From Bacteroides sp. (GTDB lineage Bacteria > Bacillota > Clostridia > Lachnospirales > Lachnospiraceae): a stretch of DNA of 64,000 nucleotides. The position numbers were made by a program, and so were the translations under genes. The notes below the pieces were generated by a model, which was given only the letters and a program-made list of their open reading frames with translations, made no database searches and was not told where the DNA came from. Shown here piece by piece: positions 26 to 5,560 of this stretch; position 1 is the first letter of the stretch; every line of letters starts with the position of its first letter. The stretch covers positions 1-64,000 of the forward strand of contig JAMPBO010000015.1 of the NCBI GenBank assembly GCA_023666705.1, read 5' to 3'.

Positions 26-1009
26 TTATGATTCAATCCCAAGCCATCCCTTTACTGTTTCCACGGCATATCCAACCGCTTGAGCTATTTTCTCTGCATC
101 AAGCCCCATGTCATATAATTTTCCGGCTGTTTCCTTTGCCTTATTCATTTCACCTATTTGACGTTCTTCTTTCCGAATTTCTTGAATCGCCTGGCACATA
201 TCGACCGATACCTCGCTTTCATCATATTCTATTCCTGAATTTGTGACTGCCTCAATCACATCCACAGCTCTGCGCTCCACTTCCCGGAAACGCTTTTCAT
301 TCACCTTCAGTACCCTGTTTAAGTTTTCCCTGTCCTTTGAATATTTGATGAAGAACATAACTTCCCGCAGACTTGACTGGAACTTCATGATCTCATCATC
401 TGTCATCTGCGCCGGGGCAATCAGCCGCACATGGTAGTTGTCTATGAAAGAAAAAATCCTGGGGTCTTTTACCTCCATCATATCGAACAGGCTCAATGGG
501 CCGTCCCACGCATCCGGGGCAAAGTAAAGCATGACAGTCACTGATGGAATCAGACGGTCAGTTTTCCAAAATCCGCTCAAAAACTCCCCGGCATTCGGCT
601 TCTGCTGTTCCATACCGGAATCAACCTTTTCCTGTTCCCTCGCCTGTTTCATCGCCCTCCGATGTGACCTTGCCGCCTCCTCCACCTGCCCGGCGTATTC
701 GATGGCGTCATATAGGTTGTTTTTCACTGCAGCCGCATAATGGATTTCTGACTGTGCCTCGATTCCATAAAGGACATATTCCATGCTGCCGTCCGTCATG
801 GCCGCATACAGTTTCTGGACATCCCTGAATTTCTGGACCGGCACCGCCGCCCCATCCCCACCGTAAGGAAGGGCAATCTCCGTAGGGTCACGCTCTTCCA
901 ACTGCTCCGGGCGGATAACCTGCTCACCGTCATAAATAAAATAGTTAAACACGTCCGCGAATACGGTTGTGTCCGAAATATAATCTTTTGTTATCGTATC
1001 TGCTTTCAA
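26..1009 (-). CDS. Rpn/PD-(D/E)XK family putative nuclease (TIGR01784-like)
   Basis: The product resembles the recombination-promoting nuclease / putative transposase family (PD-(D/E)XK fold) common in Clostridia. Family hallmarks visible are the N-terminal KDYISDTTVFADVFNYFIY segment, then a stretch with ALPYGGDGAAVPVQKFRDV and a Lys/Glu-rich C-terminal half. The family is thought to act on DNA; no substrate can be read here. I choose a TTG start at 1009, giving MKADTITKDY, because a TTGAAA / 17 bp / TATAAT promoter (1080-1108) overlaps the upstream in-frame ATG, so that ATG cannot be in the transcript. GGAGG sits only 3 nt before the TTG, which is tight. About 328 residues; the gene appears complete, with TAA at 26-28. 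It diverges from the TM-TIR module and lies in the accessory left end. Family placement is fairly sure, the start less so. Confidence 0.75.
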   Translation of the reverse strand: MKADTITKDYISDTTVFADVFNYFIYDGEQVIRPEQLEERDPTEIALPYGGDGAAVPVQKFRDVQKLYAAMTDGSMEYVLYGIEAQSEIHYAAAVKNNLYDAIEYAGQVEEAARSHRRAMKQAREQEKVDSGMEQQKPNAGEFLSGFWKTDRLIPSVTVMLYFAPDAWDGPLSLFDMMEVKDPRIFSFIDNYHVRLIAPAQMTDDEIMKFQSSLREVMFFIKYSKDRENLNRVLKVNEKRFREVERRAVDVIEAVTNSGIEYDESEVSVDMCQAIQEIRKEERQIGEMNKAKETAGKLYDMGLDAEKIAQAVGYAVETVKGWLGIES

Positions 1010-1079
1010 CGGCCTCCACCGCCTTCCCAAAAATGCATGGCAGGACTTGGCCTTGCCAAACCCTCTCTGCCATAGCCCC

Positions 1080-1108
1080 ATTATACTAAAAAGGCTATCT
1101 TTTTTCAA
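1080..1108 (-). promoter_or_regulatory. Promoter of the Rpn-family gene
   Basis: On the minus strand a -35 TTGAAA (1103-1108) and -10 TATAAT (1080-1085) are separated by exactly 17 bp. Transcription would start near 1073, downstream of the in-frame ATG at 1081, which decides the downstream TTG start. Confidence 0.6.
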
Positions 1109-1143
1109 GCGTATCCGGCTTATCTCCAAAACCGCCACAGATA

Positions 1144-1244
1144 GACCACGGGGGTTCACTTTTTTTGACCACGGGGTTCAAAATGACCATAGGGTGTTCA
1201 TTTCCTCTGACCACGGGGTTCAAATGCCCTTTGGGGAGGGTTCA
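1144..1244. repeat. Iteron-like array A (GACCACGGGGTTCA units)
   Basis: Four direct repeats of GACCACGGGGTTCA (variants GACCACGGGGGTTCA and GACCATAGGGTGTTCA) begin at 1144, 1167, 1185 and 1209. A degraded fifth unit ending GGGTTCA lies at 1233-1244, and an inverted TGAACACCCCC follows. Start-to-start spacing is 18-24 bp, about two helical turns. Such arrays are typical initiator-binding sites of plasmid-type origins; no initiator gene is present in this window. Confidence 0.6.
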
Positions 1245-1300
1245 AAAGTGAACACCCCCTCTGCCGACTGCCACAGATTTTCAAACCAGCCAAAACGCAA

Positions 1301-1342
1301 ACAAGGGATTCCAGCAACAGCCAATGTGCCGGAATCCCTTGT
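1301..1342. terminator. Bidirectional terminator-like hairpin
   Basis: ACAAGGGATTCC at 1301-1312 pairs with GGAATCCCTTGT at 1331-1342. T-rich tracts lie on both sides, so either strand could use it. It lies between the two repeat arrays of the origin-like region. Confidence 0.5.
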
Positions 1343-1377
1343 TTTCAGCGGTTTCCCTGATATTCTGTTCATTCCCT

Positions 1378-1429
1378 TTGTATCAATTAAGCGGTTTACA
1401 TTTCTATGTAAATGGTGTCTTTGATACAA
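1378..1429. repeat. Nested palindrome in the origin-like region
   Basis: The outer arms TTGTATCAA (1378-1386) and TTGATACAA (1421-1429) are perfect inverted repeats. They enclose a second perfect pair, TTTACAT (1395-1401) and ATGTAAA (1406-1412). This could form a cruciform or an operator. Together with the flanking iterons it suggests a replication-origin remnant. Confidence 0.5.
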
Positions 1430-1444
1430 TTCGATTTTGCTTGG

Positions 1445-1501
1445 TACTTTTTGATTTTCCCCCTAACAATTTGATTTTTCCCTATACTTTTTGATTATTT
1501 C
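1445..1501. repeat. Iteron-like array B (20-bp period)
   Basis: Three imperfect direct repeats share the core TTTTTGATT plus a CCCTA flank. TTGATT begins at 1451, 1471 and 1491, an exact 20-bp period. AGGGGGTTCAAA at 1506-1517 then repeats the array A core. An array with two-helical-turn spacing next to a second array is expected for an initiator-binding origin. No coding sequence is supported in 1010-1620; this stretch holds the two arrays, a terminator hairpin, a nested palindrome and the TM-TIR promoter. Confidence 0.55.
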
Positions 1502-1563
1502 ATTTAGGGGGTTCAAATTGGAAATATCAATTCAAATCCCTGCGAAAGCAAACAAATTTTCGA

Positions 1564-1592
1564 TTGTAAAATCACTTTCCATATGCTATAGT
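1564..1592 (+). promoter_or_regulatory. Promoter of the TM-TIR module
   Basis: TTGTAA (1564-1569) and TATAGT (1587-1592) are separated by 17 bp. The predicted start is near 1599, about 20 nt before the first possible ATG at 1621. No other promoter is apparent ahead of either gene, so both are probably co-transcribed. Confidence 0.5.
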
Positions 1593-1620
1593 AAAATTTA
1601 AAGCATAAAAAGTATAAACT

Positions 1621-2304
1621 ATGGTTTTAAAGGGAATGAGTGTCAAAATGGATACAGCAGAAATTATTTATGACCATTATAAGGAAACTGATGAATTGCG
1701 GAGAACTGCACAAGGCAAACGGGATAAAAGTTTTTTATGTGTATGTATCTTAGAGGCCTTTTCATTTTTCTTATTAATAAAACCCGAAGAAGCATTGGCC
1801 ATATTGCTGGATGGTATCAATAGCCAATTGGAAACAAACATAAGTTTTGGATTAGGTGTTTTGCAAACCTTGCTATGGATTTTGGTCATATATGCCACAA
1901 TTCAGTATATTCAAGCAGTACTATATGTCGAACGATCATATCGGTACCAAAATAAACTTGAAAAAGAGCTTTCACAAGAAATCCGAAAAGCAATTAGCCG
2001 AGAGGGTGATAGTTATACAGAAAATTATCCTATGGTAAGCAACTTCATTGAGTTATTCTATAAAATGTTTTGTCCCATTCTTTTTTTAGTGATAAATTCA
2101 GTGCATATTTATAAAGAATGGATTCAAATGCCAAAAATTAATTTCAGGCTTGTATGTGACACTGTGCTATATGTTGCTTTATTTGTTATTTTATGGTTCT
2201 ACTTTTTTGAAATTCATTCTAAAATAACCAACTGGTGCAAAATGCACATTCCAGGAATCAAGTTTATTGCTGACAAATTGCGTAATCTATTAAAGGAGGT
2301 CTAA
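1621..2304 (+). CDS. Four-helix membrane protein, partner of the adjacent TIR protein
   Basis: I do not recognise a named family. About 227 residues with four hydrophobic segments near residues 40-58, 78-104, 150-170 and 182-203. A charged cytoplasmic-looking linker (about 105-145, KLEKELSQEIRKAISREG) separates the two hairpins and a basic C-terminus follows. No signal peptide or enzymatic motif is visible. Starts at 1636 or 1648 (MDTAEIIYDHY) are possible; AAAGGGA at 1629-1635 favours 1648 weakly. The ribosome binding site of the next gene, AAGGAGG, lies inside the last codons, and the ATG follows the stop by 4 nt, so translation is probably coupled. By position it is the likely membrane effector of a Thoeris-like pair; loose similarity to SLATT-type membrane effectors is possible but unproven. 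Base composition is markedly AT-richer than the partition genes next to it. Confidence 0.7.
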   Translation: MVLKGMSVKMDTAEIIYDHYKETDELRRTAQGKRDKSFLCVCILEAFSFFLLIKPEEALAILLDGINSQLETNISFGLGVLQTLLWILVIYATIQYIQAVLYVERSYRYQNKLEKELSQEIRKAISREGDSYTENYPMVSNFIELFYKMFCPILFLVINSVHIYKEWIQMPKINFRLVCDTVLYVALFVILWFYFFEIHSKITNWCKMHIPGIKFIADKLRNLLKEV

Positions 2305-2308
2305 AATT

Positions 2309-2740
2309 ATGGCAAAGAAAAAGGTGTGCGTATCGTTTGATTATGAACATGATAAGCACTATTACTATCTTTTAGAAGCGTGGAACAAGAATCCCAACAT
2401 AGATTTTGGGATTAATGACTGCACTCCAAGCGAGATTCAATCTGAATCTGTATCCAAAATCAAACAGGTTCTTAGCACGAAAATAGGACAAGCTAATTAC
2501 ATGGTTGCAATCATTGGAGAACATTCCACTGACACACATCCAGACAGTACAGAAATTGGCTATAATAACTGGCAATCATATGAAGTTGCTAAAAATCATG
2601 AAAAAGGAAACGGTCTCGTAGTTGTTAAATTAGATTCATCATGTTCTGCACCAGATGAGTGTTACAATATCGGAACAAAATGGGTGACAGGATTTTCATT
2701 AGATGCAATTGAAAATGCATTGAAAGAATTAGTAAATTAA
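2309..2740 (+). CDS. ThsB-like TIR-domain protein (MTH538/DUF1863 type)
   Basis: A 143-residue single-domain protein of the MTH538 TIR-like family (PF08937), to which Thoeris ThsB sensors belong. Visible landmarks are the first beta strand KKKVCVSFDYEHDKHYY, the central TPSEIQSESVSKIKQVL helix, strand YMVAIIG (64-70), the segment EIGYNNWQSYEVA with Trp88 and Glu92 in the conserved W-x-x-[FY]-E pattern of the catalytic region, and a C-terminal helix. In Thoeris such proteins make a signal molecule from NAD after phage infection and activate a partner. Here no SIR2-SLOG, macro-domain or caspase partner is adjacent; the only partner is the membrane protein 4 nt upstream. The start is fixed by AAGGAGG at good spacing. 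Family call is strong; the defence role is inferred from family and context. Confidence 0.8.
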   Translation: MAKKKVCVSFDYEHDKHYYYLLEAWNKNPNIDFGINDCTPSEIQSESVSKIKQVLSTKIGQANYMVAIIGEHSTDTHPDSTEIGYNNWQSYEVAKNHEKGNGLVVVKLDSSCSAPDECYNIGTKWVTGFSLDAIENALKELVN

Positions 2741-2749
2741 AAATTACTA

Positions 2750-3139
2750 TTAGCGAGAAGTATATCTTTGAGCAGAAACAGCAAGTTTACCGCTTACCGG
2801 TTCTGCCTTGTAATAAGTGTCATATATCCCTTCCTTTGACAGATCGAAGGAACCTTTTCCCTCATAATAGGACACCCTGACCTTACCGGGATTGTAACTG
2901 ATTCCATCCGTAGTGTCTTTCACATCATAATCGGAATCTTTCTCCACGGTAATGTCCTCTGCCGCTGCCACTTCATCAGCATCCAAATCTGTCCTGTCCT
3001 CTGCCGCATACAGAACGGGTTCCTGTCCATCCGCTTTGCCCGTATCCTCTGCAAAAACGAATGAACCGCTTCCCGCTACTGCCGTAAGCATAATAACGAC
3101 AGCCATAAACATTGCTAATTTTCTCCTGCATTTCTTCAT
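2750..3139 (-). pseudogene. Truncated secreted adhesin-type protein (N-terminal fragment)
   Basis: The first 30 residues form a Sec signal peptide (KK..RRK, hydrophobic core MFMAVVIMLTAV, FVFAED cleavage region). The mature part ends with VRVSYYEGKGSFDLSKEGIY, a segment I associate with the N-terminal region of large sortase-anchored or isopeptide-domain surface proteins carried by Clostridia conjugative elements. The reading frame stops after 129 residues. The homology-like part ends near PVSGK (about 2805), and the last 12 residues look unrelated. The stop lies 9 bp from the end of the TIR gene, on the opposite strand, so the rest of the gene was probably lost when the TM-TIR module arrived or through a deletion there. 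A secreted fragment may still be made. Fragment status is inferred, not proven. Confidence 0.55.
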
Positions 3140-3207
3140 TGTACCATTCTTCCTTTCCTCATTGATTTACGCAAACAAAATTCCCTGCCTTTCCGCCCAA
3201 AAAGGGC

Positions 3208-3242
3208 AGAAAAAAAGACACACCACTCTGGCATGTCTTTTC
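3208..3242 (-). terminator. Rho-independent terminator after the 119-aa gene
   Basis: On the minus strand AAAGACA (3240-3234) pairs with TGTCTTT (3220-3214) and is followed by a T run. It separates the partition operon from the truncated adhesin gene. Confidence 0.6.
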
Positions 3243-3309
3243 TACCCATAAGCCCTTATTGCACTCAGGCTTCCCTTATCTGATTTTTACTCTCATGGAT
3301 TACCTCCCC

Positions 3310-3669
3310 TTATGGAGCAGTGATACTGCCATTCTGCATGAAACTCTGCCACGAAACCGAGGTAACATACATCAAATCCGCATTATCCCTGATATAGAAA
3401 ACGGAAAAATCTGCATAGGCGAAACCAAACCGCTTTTCCCCGAAAGTTCCGTCTGCAACATAGTCACCCAAATCTCCGCCCTGCTTCTTTTCTTCCTCAA
3501 TCTCAAGATTGGCCTCACTCTCCACAATGCTTAATGCTTCATAAGTGCCATGTAACCGTTCCCTGAACCATTCCTCCATATCTTCAAATGTGCGGAAACG
3601 GAAACCTGCCATTTCCTCAAACAGCCTGTCTGCCTTTTCTTTTGTATCAATACATTCCTTACCCATCAT
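3310..3669 (-). CDS. Hypothetical protein downstream of the partition pair
   Basis: I do not recognise this 119-residue protein. It is soluble-looking and acidic, with an N-terminal helical region (KEKADRLFEEMAGFRFRTFEDMEEWF) and a C-terminal beta-rich part with many aromatics (FGFAYADFSVFYIRDNADLMYVTSVSW). A strong AAGGAGG lies before the double ATG; the start could be 3669 or 3666. It is the third gene after parM-like and parR-like genes on the same strand, with a 13-nt gap, and a terminator follows. It is therefore probably part of the element's maintenance operon. No function can be inferred. Confidence 0.65.
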   Translation of the reverse strand: MMGKECIDTKEKADRLFEEMAGFRFRTFEDMEEWFRERLHGTYEALSIVESEANLEIEEEKKQGGDLGDYVADGTFGEKRFGFAYADFSVFYIRDNADLMYVTSVSWQSFMQNGSITAP

Positions 3670-3682
3670 CGGTGCCTCCTTT

Positions 3683-4099
3683 CTATCCCCACTTCATCGC
3701 AGCATCCAGCACTTCATCTTCAATTTCCGGCTCCGCATTTTCCCTGTTCTCCTGCCCTGTATCTGCCTGCCCCATGTTCATGTTTTGAAGAAGCACGTTT
3801 CCACCGTATAACTGAAGTACCTTGCCATAAACCTCTGCTTTCAGGTCAGATATGGCTTTTTCCATTTCCTCCCGTGAAACATATTCCTCCCTGCATTTCT
3901 GCTTTCTCTCAAAACCGCTGTTTGTCACTTCCGCTTCATCAAAACTGTTAAAATAGTATTCAATCGCATCTATGATAAACTGGTTTTTCGATTTATGAAT
4001 ATCCATATTCAAATCTTCCAACAGGTTACGCACTTTAATGTGCTGCTCATTTTCCCCGCTCAGACGGATGGTGAAGTTGCGGAATTTCCTTTTTGCCAT
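3683..4099 (-). CDS. ParR-like centromere-binding protein
   Basis: About 138 residues. The N-terminus MAKRKFRNFTIRLSGENEQH looks like a basic ribbon-helix-helix strand followed by helices (VRNLLEDLNMDIHKSKNQFIIDAIEYYF). The C-terminal half is acidic and helical. This arrangement, directly downstream of a ParM-type actin ATPase, is that of ParR adaptors, which bind a centromere and link it to the filament. The start is at the second of two adjacent ATGs after a GGGGG-type ribosome binding site; the parM-like stop is 12 nt upstream. Assignment rests more on context and N-terminal pattern than on a conserved signature, so a CopG-like regulator is an alternative. Confidence 0.6.
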   Translation of the reverse strand: MAKRKFRNFTIRLSGENEQHIKVRNLLEDLNMDIHKSKNQFIIDAIEYYFNSFDEAEVTNSGFERKQKCREEYVSREEMEKAISDLKAEVYGKVLQLYGGNVLLQNMNMGQADTGQENRENAEPEIEDEVLDAAMKWG

Positions 4100-4111
4100 C
4101 ATCCACACCCC

Positions 4112-5038
4112 CTATGCAAAATGCTTCAAAACCCTGTTCAGGTATATGTTGCCGAGATACTCATATCCTTTGGCATTTGCCTTTACATCCTCAATGTAAC
4201 GGATGTTTTTCTGGTTCAGTTCTCCAAACAGCTTCATCATTACCGCACCGCCGCCGACAAATGTGATAGGCGTGGTTTTCAGGTTATACCCCTGCTCGCC
4301 TATCATGCGGAATACCTTTTTGGCATAAGCGGCAATTTCTTTTTTGACAATCTCAAGATACTCCGTTTCAAGAAAATCATTGCTGCCTTTCATCATAACC
4401 TCCTGTATTGCACTTTCATCAATCTGTCCATTTAACAGCCGGACACTCTGCTCATTGATACGCCGCATACAAGTGATAATACCCTCCGGCACAGTGACAC
4501 ATAAGGATTCATCCGGGGAATGTCCGATTACCGGCACCATGTCAATCGTCCATGAGCCAATATCGGCAACCAGTTCCTTTTGTGAAAAATCCTTTATCCG
4601 GTCTGCCACCGCCCCGTAACACTGCGGATAAACAGAAACCCTTTCCACGGTAATCCGGTACTGCTTTTTCTCAAAACGGAAAGACACTTCCCTTTCCCGT
4701 TTCAGGTAATCAATAAATCCCTGCTTCTCTGCCCCGAATCTCCCGATTGGAAGCCCTGCCGCAATCAGTACATGTGCATTTCTCTTTCCTCTTAATTCCA
4801 GCTCCTTTGCCACTGCCGCCAGCGTGAGGATATAAAAACTGTCATCGGACACCTTATCTTCCTTGACTTCCAGACGGTTCCCGCCTACCTTATAATACTT
4901 CCCTTTATACTGCACTACATTATCAAACAGTGCCGGCTCCGTGGTAATCTCCCTGACACCTGATGTAAAAACGCTCCCTGCGGTTTTCATCTGCGACCAG
5001 CCGTGGTCTATCCCTATCACGATTGTATTCTTATCCAT
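4112..5038 (-). CDS. parM: ParM/StbA-type actin-like segregation ATPase
   Basis: A 308-residue actin-fold ATPase. Phosphate-1 motif GIDHGWSQMKTA near residues 9-20, phosphate-2 motif VADIGSWTIDMV near 157-168 (DIG core), and adenosine motif FVGGGAVMM near 268-276. These match the ParM/StbA family that polymerises to push plasmid or integrative-element copies apart. The start at 5038 is fixed by AAGGAGG seven nt upstream; longer in-frame extensions to 5224 lie in what looks like leader DNA. It heads a minus-strand operon with the ParR-like and 119-aa genes. A partition system on chromosomal DNA beside lysS indicates an integrated plasmid-like element. Confidence 0.85.
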   Translation of the reverse strand: MDKNTIVIGIDHGWSQMKTAGSVFTSGVREITTEPALFDNVVQYKGKYYKVGGNRLEVKEDKVSDDSFYILTLAAVAKELELRGKRNAHVLIAAGLPIGRFGAEKQGFIDYLKREREVSFRFEKKQYRITVERVSVYPQCYGAVADRIKDFSQKELVADIGSWTIDMVPVIGHSPDESLCVTVPEGIITCMRRINEQSVRLLNGQIDESAIQEVMMKGSNDFLETEYLEIVKKEIAAYAKKVFRMIGEQGYNLKTTPITFVGGGAVMMKLFGELNQKNIRYIEDVKANAKGYEYLGNIYLNRVLKHFA

Positions 5039-5560
5039 AACTTGACCTCCTTGTATTCTGCAATCTTTATAATTGGTTACATTTTTCCGGCAGTCCATTC
5101 TTATCTTCCATTCATCCTCCATGCCTGCCATTATTGTTATGTAGAAGTGTACGCCGGTATCTCTACCCCTCATTGCCCGTACACATGGAATTACAGACCG
5201 GTGCTTCCGCTTCACGGCATACATTGTATGCTCTCCCCTGCTGCTATTTCCGGGGATAAGGAAAGTTCTTCACTTCCCTTTGTGGTTTATTATCCATCCG
5301 CCACAAGTAACCTGCCGTGTCCGCTCCATCTTCATTGTTACATCCATCAACTCTTATCGCATGACTTTGACTGATCCATTGTCTGGCATTGCACCGGATT
5401 TCTACCGAGTAGGATTTCTCCCAACTGTCTGTAATTGCTATTCAGTTGTTACAGCTCTCTTTCGATTACTGTACCCCTATGGTAAATCCAAATGCCGGAA
5501 TTGGCTATGGACTCTCATGGTATAATTTGCGGACTGCATACCATGTCATGGTATTTTTGA
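5039..5560 (-). promoter_or_regulatory. Long leader and operator region of the partition operon
   Basis: No convincing gene is seen in this stretch. It holds a palindrome ATACCATG-T-CATGGTAT at 5538-5554 with a third copy, CATGGTAT, at 5516-5523, which suits an operator or small centromere. Between this and parM lies a roughly 460-nt untranslated stretch of higher GC. It contains local inverted repeats such as CAACTG/CAGTTG (5422-5450 region) and a short possible 13-codon leader frame starting near 5518. A structured leader or cis-acting RNA is possible; I cannot assign a known RNA class. Confidence 0.35.

Follow-up and report, generated by a model that had tools for sequence, protein, structure and literature searches.

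A conserved pair of genes for a four-helix membrane protein and a ThsB-type TIR protein in mobile-looking DNA, with a likely role in phage defence

Two adjacent genes in a Lachnospiraceae genome, encoding a membrane protein with four helices from an unnamed family and a single-domain TIR protein of the ThsB type, were found to form a real module that is conserved well beyond the window (the whole stretch of 64,000 nucleotides that was analysed, contig JAMPBO010000015.1). From the context of the pair a role in defence is likely, and the reading that we favor with moderate confidence is that of a Thoeris-like, mobile two-gene abortive-infection module, in which an NAD derivative made by the TIR protein would drive a membrane effector that carries no SLOG, macro or caspase domain. 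The features of the pair in the window are as follows.

1564 to 1592, plus strand: TTGTAA-17-TATAGT with extended TG, a promoter-like site directly 5' of both genes, a consensus match only
1621 to 2304, plus strand: gene for the four-helix membrane protein of unnamed family (P0001, ORF of 227 aa), the proposed effector
2292 to 2299, plus strand: ribosome-binding site AAAGGAGG of the TIR gene, read from the sequence
2309 to 2740, plus strand: single-domain ThsB-type TIR gene (P0002, ORF of 143 aa), the proposed sensor and signal maker
2582 to 2584, plus strand: Glu92 codon of the TIR gene, the residue being invariant in the aligned TIR proteins

Both reading frames, the membrane protein gene and the ThsB-class TIR gene, were found where the original prediction had placed them, separated by 4 nt, and the ribosome-binding site of the second gene does overlap the first, with AAAGGAGG sitting within the last codons of the membrane protein gene, 9 nt 5' of the ATG of the TIR gene. 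The proposed common promoter fared less well: a promoter-like site lies in front of both genes, but it matches the consensus only, and the 9 such sites observed between 1200 and 3200, against 6.8 (sd 2.4) in shuffled sequences, give no clear enrichment. The codon of M10 of P0001 aligns with the start codon in most relatives, and the membrane protein gene therefore probably begins at 1648, which would give a protein of 218 aa.

To describe how the two genes are linked elsewhere, we scanned one genome per species with one short pattern, using six relatives of the membrane protein as the basis; this gave 152 pattern stretches, 27 of which encode a relative, a number that is a lower bound because a single short pattern was scanned. 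The same TIR subfamily was directly adjacent at 23 of these 27 loci and other TIR proteins at two (L037 and L056, where the neighbors are other TIR-domain genes, as confirmed by Pfam TIR_2), while contig ends cut the remaining two (L039 and L043). Homologues rarely found beside TIR genes, the outcome that had been named as counting against the pairing, were thus not what the scan returned, and a TIR neighbor was present at all 25 loci that are not cut by contig ends. Since the host genome of 2.86 Mb has just 2 PF08937 matches, yet 25 of the 27 loci have a TIR neighbor, the pairing is more than chance. Five loci (L036, L037, L038, L047, L051) come from the same genomes as G899, G342, G738, G829 and G819, respectively, and were counted once within the 27; L030 to L032 are near-identical to one another, as are L066 and L067.

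The order of the genes is less constant than their adjacency. The TIR gene was upstream of the membrane protein gene in 22 of 23 loci, with a gap that ranges from a 4-nt overlap to 18 nt, the order in the window being the rarer one among relatives. The window order is seen in Eubacterium plexicaudatum (L034), where the membrane protein frame is interrupted near its 3' end and 81 nt lie between that stop and the TIR gene. As the window starts at a contig end, an assembly artefact was considered and rejected, the same order being found inside the 6.35-Mb contig of E. plexicaudatum. In that genome the module and two more TIR genes stand, by eye, between two serine-recombinase-like genes (L034 4096-11302).

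By record title, loci with the pair belong to Clostridia, Bacilli, Bacteroidota, Cloacimonadota, Omnitrophota and Moraniibacteriota; many of the records are metagenome bins, so single taxon assignments may be wrong. In samples at the level of the order, 5 of 246 genomes had the membrane protein (E <= 1e-5) and 5 of 295 had the TIR subfamily (E <= 1e-15), and the carriers of the two are the same five genomes, including the genome of the window itself. The class sample (291 genomes) gave the window's own membrane protein and three weak matches, the family sample (397 genomes) its own, G342 and one weak match, and the phylum sample (348 genomes) no relative besides its own. The module is therefore rare, G342 being the one other clear relative that these three samples gave.

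Phage contigs carry the module too, usually with the TIR gene first. When viral contigs were searched with the membrane protein, a TIR gene was just upstream in five of five loci, three of which are near-identical; when they were searched with the TIR protein, 9 of 11 loci lay beside a gene of this membrane family, five of them on contigs that the membrane protein had also found. The partners at the other two are 2TM-type genes of other families, one DUF4231-like (44% identical to a Staphylococcus one) and one 8xMP-like. Pairwise distances of the TIR and membrane proteins are correlated across 23 loci (Mantel r 0.44; 0 of 10000 permutations as high; L026 omitted as a near copy of L035), a co-divergence to which common descent of the loci could have contributed in part. 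The two proteins need not fit each other tightly, because TIR proteins 70% to 77% identical to that of the window adjoin membrane proteins that are just 25% to 55% identical to the window's.

By profile matches and its predicted structure, P0002 can be placed in the ThsB class of TIR proteins, in agreement with the family first recognized. It is matched by Pfam ThsB_TIR PF08937 at 7.6e-9, over the cut-off, by the PADLOC ThsB model at 1.2e-12, and by PHROG 6988, an unnamed phage family, at 1.3e-25. The AlphaFold model, built on 27 sequences (pLDDT 86.4), had 14 PDB matches at Foldseek E <= 0.001, headed in order by the Bacillus cereus TIR protein 8fz9, the deoxyribosyltransferase 6qai and EcThsB2 8v6t; ThsB structures 8v6t, 8wcf and 9b7d and the TIR structure 8fz9 are among these 14, beside related deoxyribosyltransferases. 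Both Glu92 and Trp88 are present in every one of the 27 aligned TIR proteins, and from its position relative to ThsB we take Glu92 to be the catalytic glutamate. The second PF08937 match of the host genome is an 837-aa protein at another place (G000:C26, L019 5569-8082).

The description of the partner as a four-helix protein of no known family was borne out. Four hydropathy peaks of P0001 (residues 37-55, 76-94, 143-161 and 175-193) mark four hydrophobic helices with a positive-inside topology, and no family in Pfam, PADLOC, NCBIfam or PHROGs matched P0001 above its cut-off; searches of 30 relatives against Pfam, PADLOC and PHROGs likewise gave no family label, apart from the weak 8xMP matches described below. 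The AlphaFold model (pLDDT 87.6, pTM 0.79) had no Foldseek match among solved structures at E <= 0.001. The profile searches recognized no ligand-binding domain in P0001 or the 30 relatives, no SIR2 or SLOG match in P0001 or among the 19 families listed for the 30 relatives, no macro domain in the 30 relatives, and no caspase-like or other protease in P0001 or the 30 relatives. SLATT/DUF4231 was likewise unmatched among the 30 relatives, and comparison with a two-sequence DUF4231 alignment indicated no similarity (E 0.39). With PADLOC read up to E 0.1, the single match among the 30 relatives was to the CARF8 model (1 member, 0.025). In the alignment of P0001 with 26 relatives (A8), the strictly conserved residues are mostly cytosolic; DHYK and R34 belong to the cytosolic N-terminal helix, and Y107, E114, R127-E128 and Y132 to the cytosolic helical stretch that joins membrane helices 2 and 3. 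In one 399-aa relative (L046 5455-6654) the C terminus is extended, and the extension weakly matches a phosphoribosyltransferase (UPRTase 0.0088, under the cut-off).

The only plasmid match of P0001 was a distant relative, a Moellerella protein of 204 aa (27% identity, 4e-10), which is encoded by the last gene of its locus, after genes for a cyclase, HORMA and TRIP13 proteins and Cap17- and Cap18-type proteins. Relatives of this protein were found in 3 plasmid records, that of Moellerella included, and in 8 of 5426 Escherichia coli genomes, and its place was the end of a CBASS operon in all four loci inspected (L007 6007-6621; L013, L014 and L083 7001-7615), the E. coli and Klebsiella loci being read by record annotation and gene order. 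In enterobacterial type III CBASS operons with Cap17- and Cap18-type genes the relative stands as the sixth, unnamed terminal gene. The Cap17 of the Moellerella locus is matched as Cap17-like in its N-terminal part; a weak match to the deoxyribosyltransferases, a class which an excerpt of PMC9503650 describes as related to TIR, stayed under the cut-off. Type III CBASS with Cap17 and Cap18 has in common with our module a terminal gene related to P0001, and differs in that the seven ORFs scanned around the pair (window 26-5224, the contig starting at window base 1) gave no match to a cyclase, HORMA or TRIP13. Because sensing in CBASS is done by other genes, the presence of the relative at the operon end argues for an effector role, and by this homology points to the membrane protein of the window as an effector.

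The same conclusion is suggested by the loci in which two or three TIR genes accompany one membrane protein gene. L035 has the order TIR, membrane protein, TIR, with the second TIR gene 2 nt downstream of the membrane protein gene, and the second TIR protein is 77% and the first 43% identical to that of the window; in G899 a second TIR gene at the start of another contig fits the order of L035. In G342, from which L037 comes, a single membrane protein gene is surrounded by genes for three larger TIR proteins (one of them under the Pfam cut-off), and further TIR genes lie downstream in L031, L034 and L040 (one of the two in L034 under the Pfam cut-off). Several thsB genes can share one thsA in Thoeris too, and the arrangement of L035 and G342 is what would be expected if the membrane protein were a shared effector. 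These loci and the CBASS relatives bear on a reversal of roles, in which the membrane protein would sense a membrane disturbance caused by phage and hold the TIR protein, which would then destroy NAD+ as the effector. TIR proteins are NADase effectors in several systems according to excerpts of PMC12948488, and genes so closely spaced would be consistent with a complex formed constitutively, but in L035 and G342 a single membrane gene goes with several TIR genes, and the occurrence of the membrane family in type III CBASS without a ThsB-type TIR fits an extra effector better than a sensor, so that we regard this reversal as unlikely. Two further observations concern TIR-rich loci: a DUF4062 protein (Pfam 2.1e-27) follows the TIR, membrane protein, TIR arrangement of L035 (7095-8090), DUF4062 having been described in 2026 as a family of TIR-like NADases (excerpt of PMC13174449), and on Acinetobacter plasmids (L010 2372-5216; L011 2372-5216) a close TIR protein lies, by record annotation, within a cluster of three TIR genes with a tetratricopeptide-repeat gene.

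The neighborhood of the pair in the window contains the following features.

1144 to 1257, plus strand: short direct and inverted repeats (GACCACGGGG / GGGGTTCAAA), from a repeat search
2750 to 3139, minus strand: N-terminal part of a large, interrupted gene for a surface-type protein, a 129-aa frame that matches longer ORFs in three relatives
3683 to 4108, minus strand: small protein gene before the ParM-like gene, its role suggested by position
4112 to 5224, minus strand: ParM-like actin gene (ALP_N PF17989, 1.6e-13)

A mobile setting was supported in that the module lies in mobile-looking DNA with an interrupted surface-type gene and ParM-like neighbors. Of the origin-like repeats and the broken surface-protein gene between which it had been placed, the repeats exist and are modest (GACCACGGGG occurs three times, with one 80% variant, at 1144-1218) and make no more than a putative origin, and the broken gene was confirmed: about 124 residues of the frame at 2750-3139 match the first part of ORFs of 1754 and 1762 aa in two relatives and, in a third, of an ORF that a contig end leaves incomplete (at least 933 aa), and in all three the order of the adjoining ParM-like and small genes is the same. 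The small protein before the ParM-like gene is not basic (19 K+R against 27 D+E), and the two are probable maintenance genes of a mobile element. Stretch 2741-5300 had DNA matches in 30 of 250 family genomes, own genome included, many of them short; because the window begins at the contig start, one side of the element is visible. At the contig start itself a 377-aa gene (26-1159) has a weak Rpn-type match (TIGR01784 5.7e-4, under the cut-off). Restriction-modification-, phage structural- and recombinase-like genes were seen by eye as neighbors at other loci. Such a location on phage contigs and mobile elements, together with the small size and close spacing of the two-gene operon, would also suit a superinfection-exclusion or addiction device, with the membrane protein as a toxin that is checked by the TIR protein; the residue at the catalytic position, invariant in 27 of 27 TIR proteins, would be of no use to an antitoxin, the membrane family occurs in CBASS without this TIR, and we consider such a device very unlikely.

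Compared with the known systems, the module is like type I Thoeris (ThsB with the SIR2-SLOG protein ThsA) in having a single-domain ThsB-class TIR protein beside a partner gene, while the partner, which there has SIR2 and SLOG, is here a four-helix membrane protein with a match to neither. Type II Thoeris, in which according to an excerpt of PMC12948488 the TIR messenger is His-ADPR and the effector disrupts the membrane, likewise joins a membrane effector to a TIR protein, and differs in the macro domain of that effector, of which the 30 relatives here gave no match. The caspase-like protease partner of type IV Thoeris also separates it from this module, P0001 and the 30 relatives having no protease match. 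In phage AC1, as far as an excerpt of PMC9122126 describes it, TIR and transmembrane proteins defend E. coli, so that TIR and membrane-protein genes occur together in a phage as they do here, with three genes there as against two here. Firmicute phages carry pairs of TIR and 2TM SLATT genes according to an excerpt of PMC9503650, which resemble our pair in having a small membrane protein beside a TIR protein in phages and differ from it in the SLATT domain. In Staphylococcus phage X2 (L008 3561-4399) a TIR gene and a DUF4231/SLATT 2TM gene overlap close to an integrase gene, the record naming domains only.

Pfam 8xMP (PF24838), described by Pfam only as an octameric membrane protein, weakly matched 5 of the 30 relatives (best 3.1e-5); the scores of L052 and L044 were 21.4 and 21.6 against the curated cut-off of 30, and a profile comparison with three 8xMP-type proteins gave 3.5% probability. 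Over the cut-off, 8xMP had three matches in 116 genomes, two of which (L061 and L062) are beside a ThsB-like TIR, and the third (L063) is incomplete, with no TIR among its ORFs. The two 8xMP genes are directly followed by the ThsB-like TIR gene (L061 1426-2040 and 1022-1423; L062 1471-1956 and 1088-1474). The proposal that a plain membrane partner sets the pair outside known Thoeris thus stood as to the domains, no SIR2, SLOG, macro or protease match being found, and not as to the kind of system, TIR proteins with plain membrane proteins being already known from phage AC1 and the phage TIR-SLATT genes, and type II Thoeris having an effector that disrupts the membrane. Type VI Thoeris is cited (excerpt of PMC13232231) from the December 2025 preprint of Yirmiya et al. 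(bioRxiv 2025.12.03.692087) on TIR signaling systems, which may already list the module of a TIR and a four-helix protein.

Under the Thoeris-like reading, phage infection would be sensed by the TIR protein, whose Glu92 would, by analogy with the ThsB class, turn NAD+ into an ADP-ribose-type messenger. This messenger may be received by the cytosolic N-terminal helix and the linker between membrane helices 2 and 3 of the partner, whose membrane helices would then oligomerize or open, so that the cell would be depolarized before phage release, with the predicted membrane damage giving protection. For this reading speak the ThsB class of the TIR protein, the pairing on genome and viral contigs, the correlated distances, the loci with several TIR genes and the CBASS relative. 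Against it are the lack of a recognized ligand-binding domain in P0001 and of a Foldseek match at E <= 0.001, the possibly loose fit of the two proteins, the possible share of common descent in their co-divergence, the rarity of the module, and the CBASS messenger, which is a cyclic oligonucleotide, so that one family would have to read two signals or a shared product. The lack of a ligand-binding domain, and the TIR neighbor that is always present at the 25 loci not cut by contig ends, would suit a membrane protein that is switched on by touching an activated TIR assembly and not by a diffusible nucleotide; this we hold to be quite unlikely, since Glu92 is invariant, so that catalysis has probably been kept, and the CBASS relatives occur without this TIR. 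We also put forward, tentatively and as a rather doubtful extension, that the four-helix protein represents a new class of nucleotide-gated membrane effectors with a ligand site formed by its own conserved cytosolic helices, which would serve TIR signaling in several phyla, would have been recruited as an extra effector into type III CBASS, and may there read a product of the neighboring enzyme Cap17, of the TIR/deoxyribosyltransferase class, and not the cyclic oligonucleotide.

The module gives a testable effector family to a pair of TIR and membrane proteins that is unlabeled in the libraries searched, and the invariant cytosolic residues suggest where a messenger-binding site may lie. Should a TIR product open it, the protein would be, to our knowledge, a ligand-gated membrane effector of very small size in bacterial immunity. 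Through the CBASS relative, one effector family would be placed in two immune pathways, and it can be asked which signal it reads.
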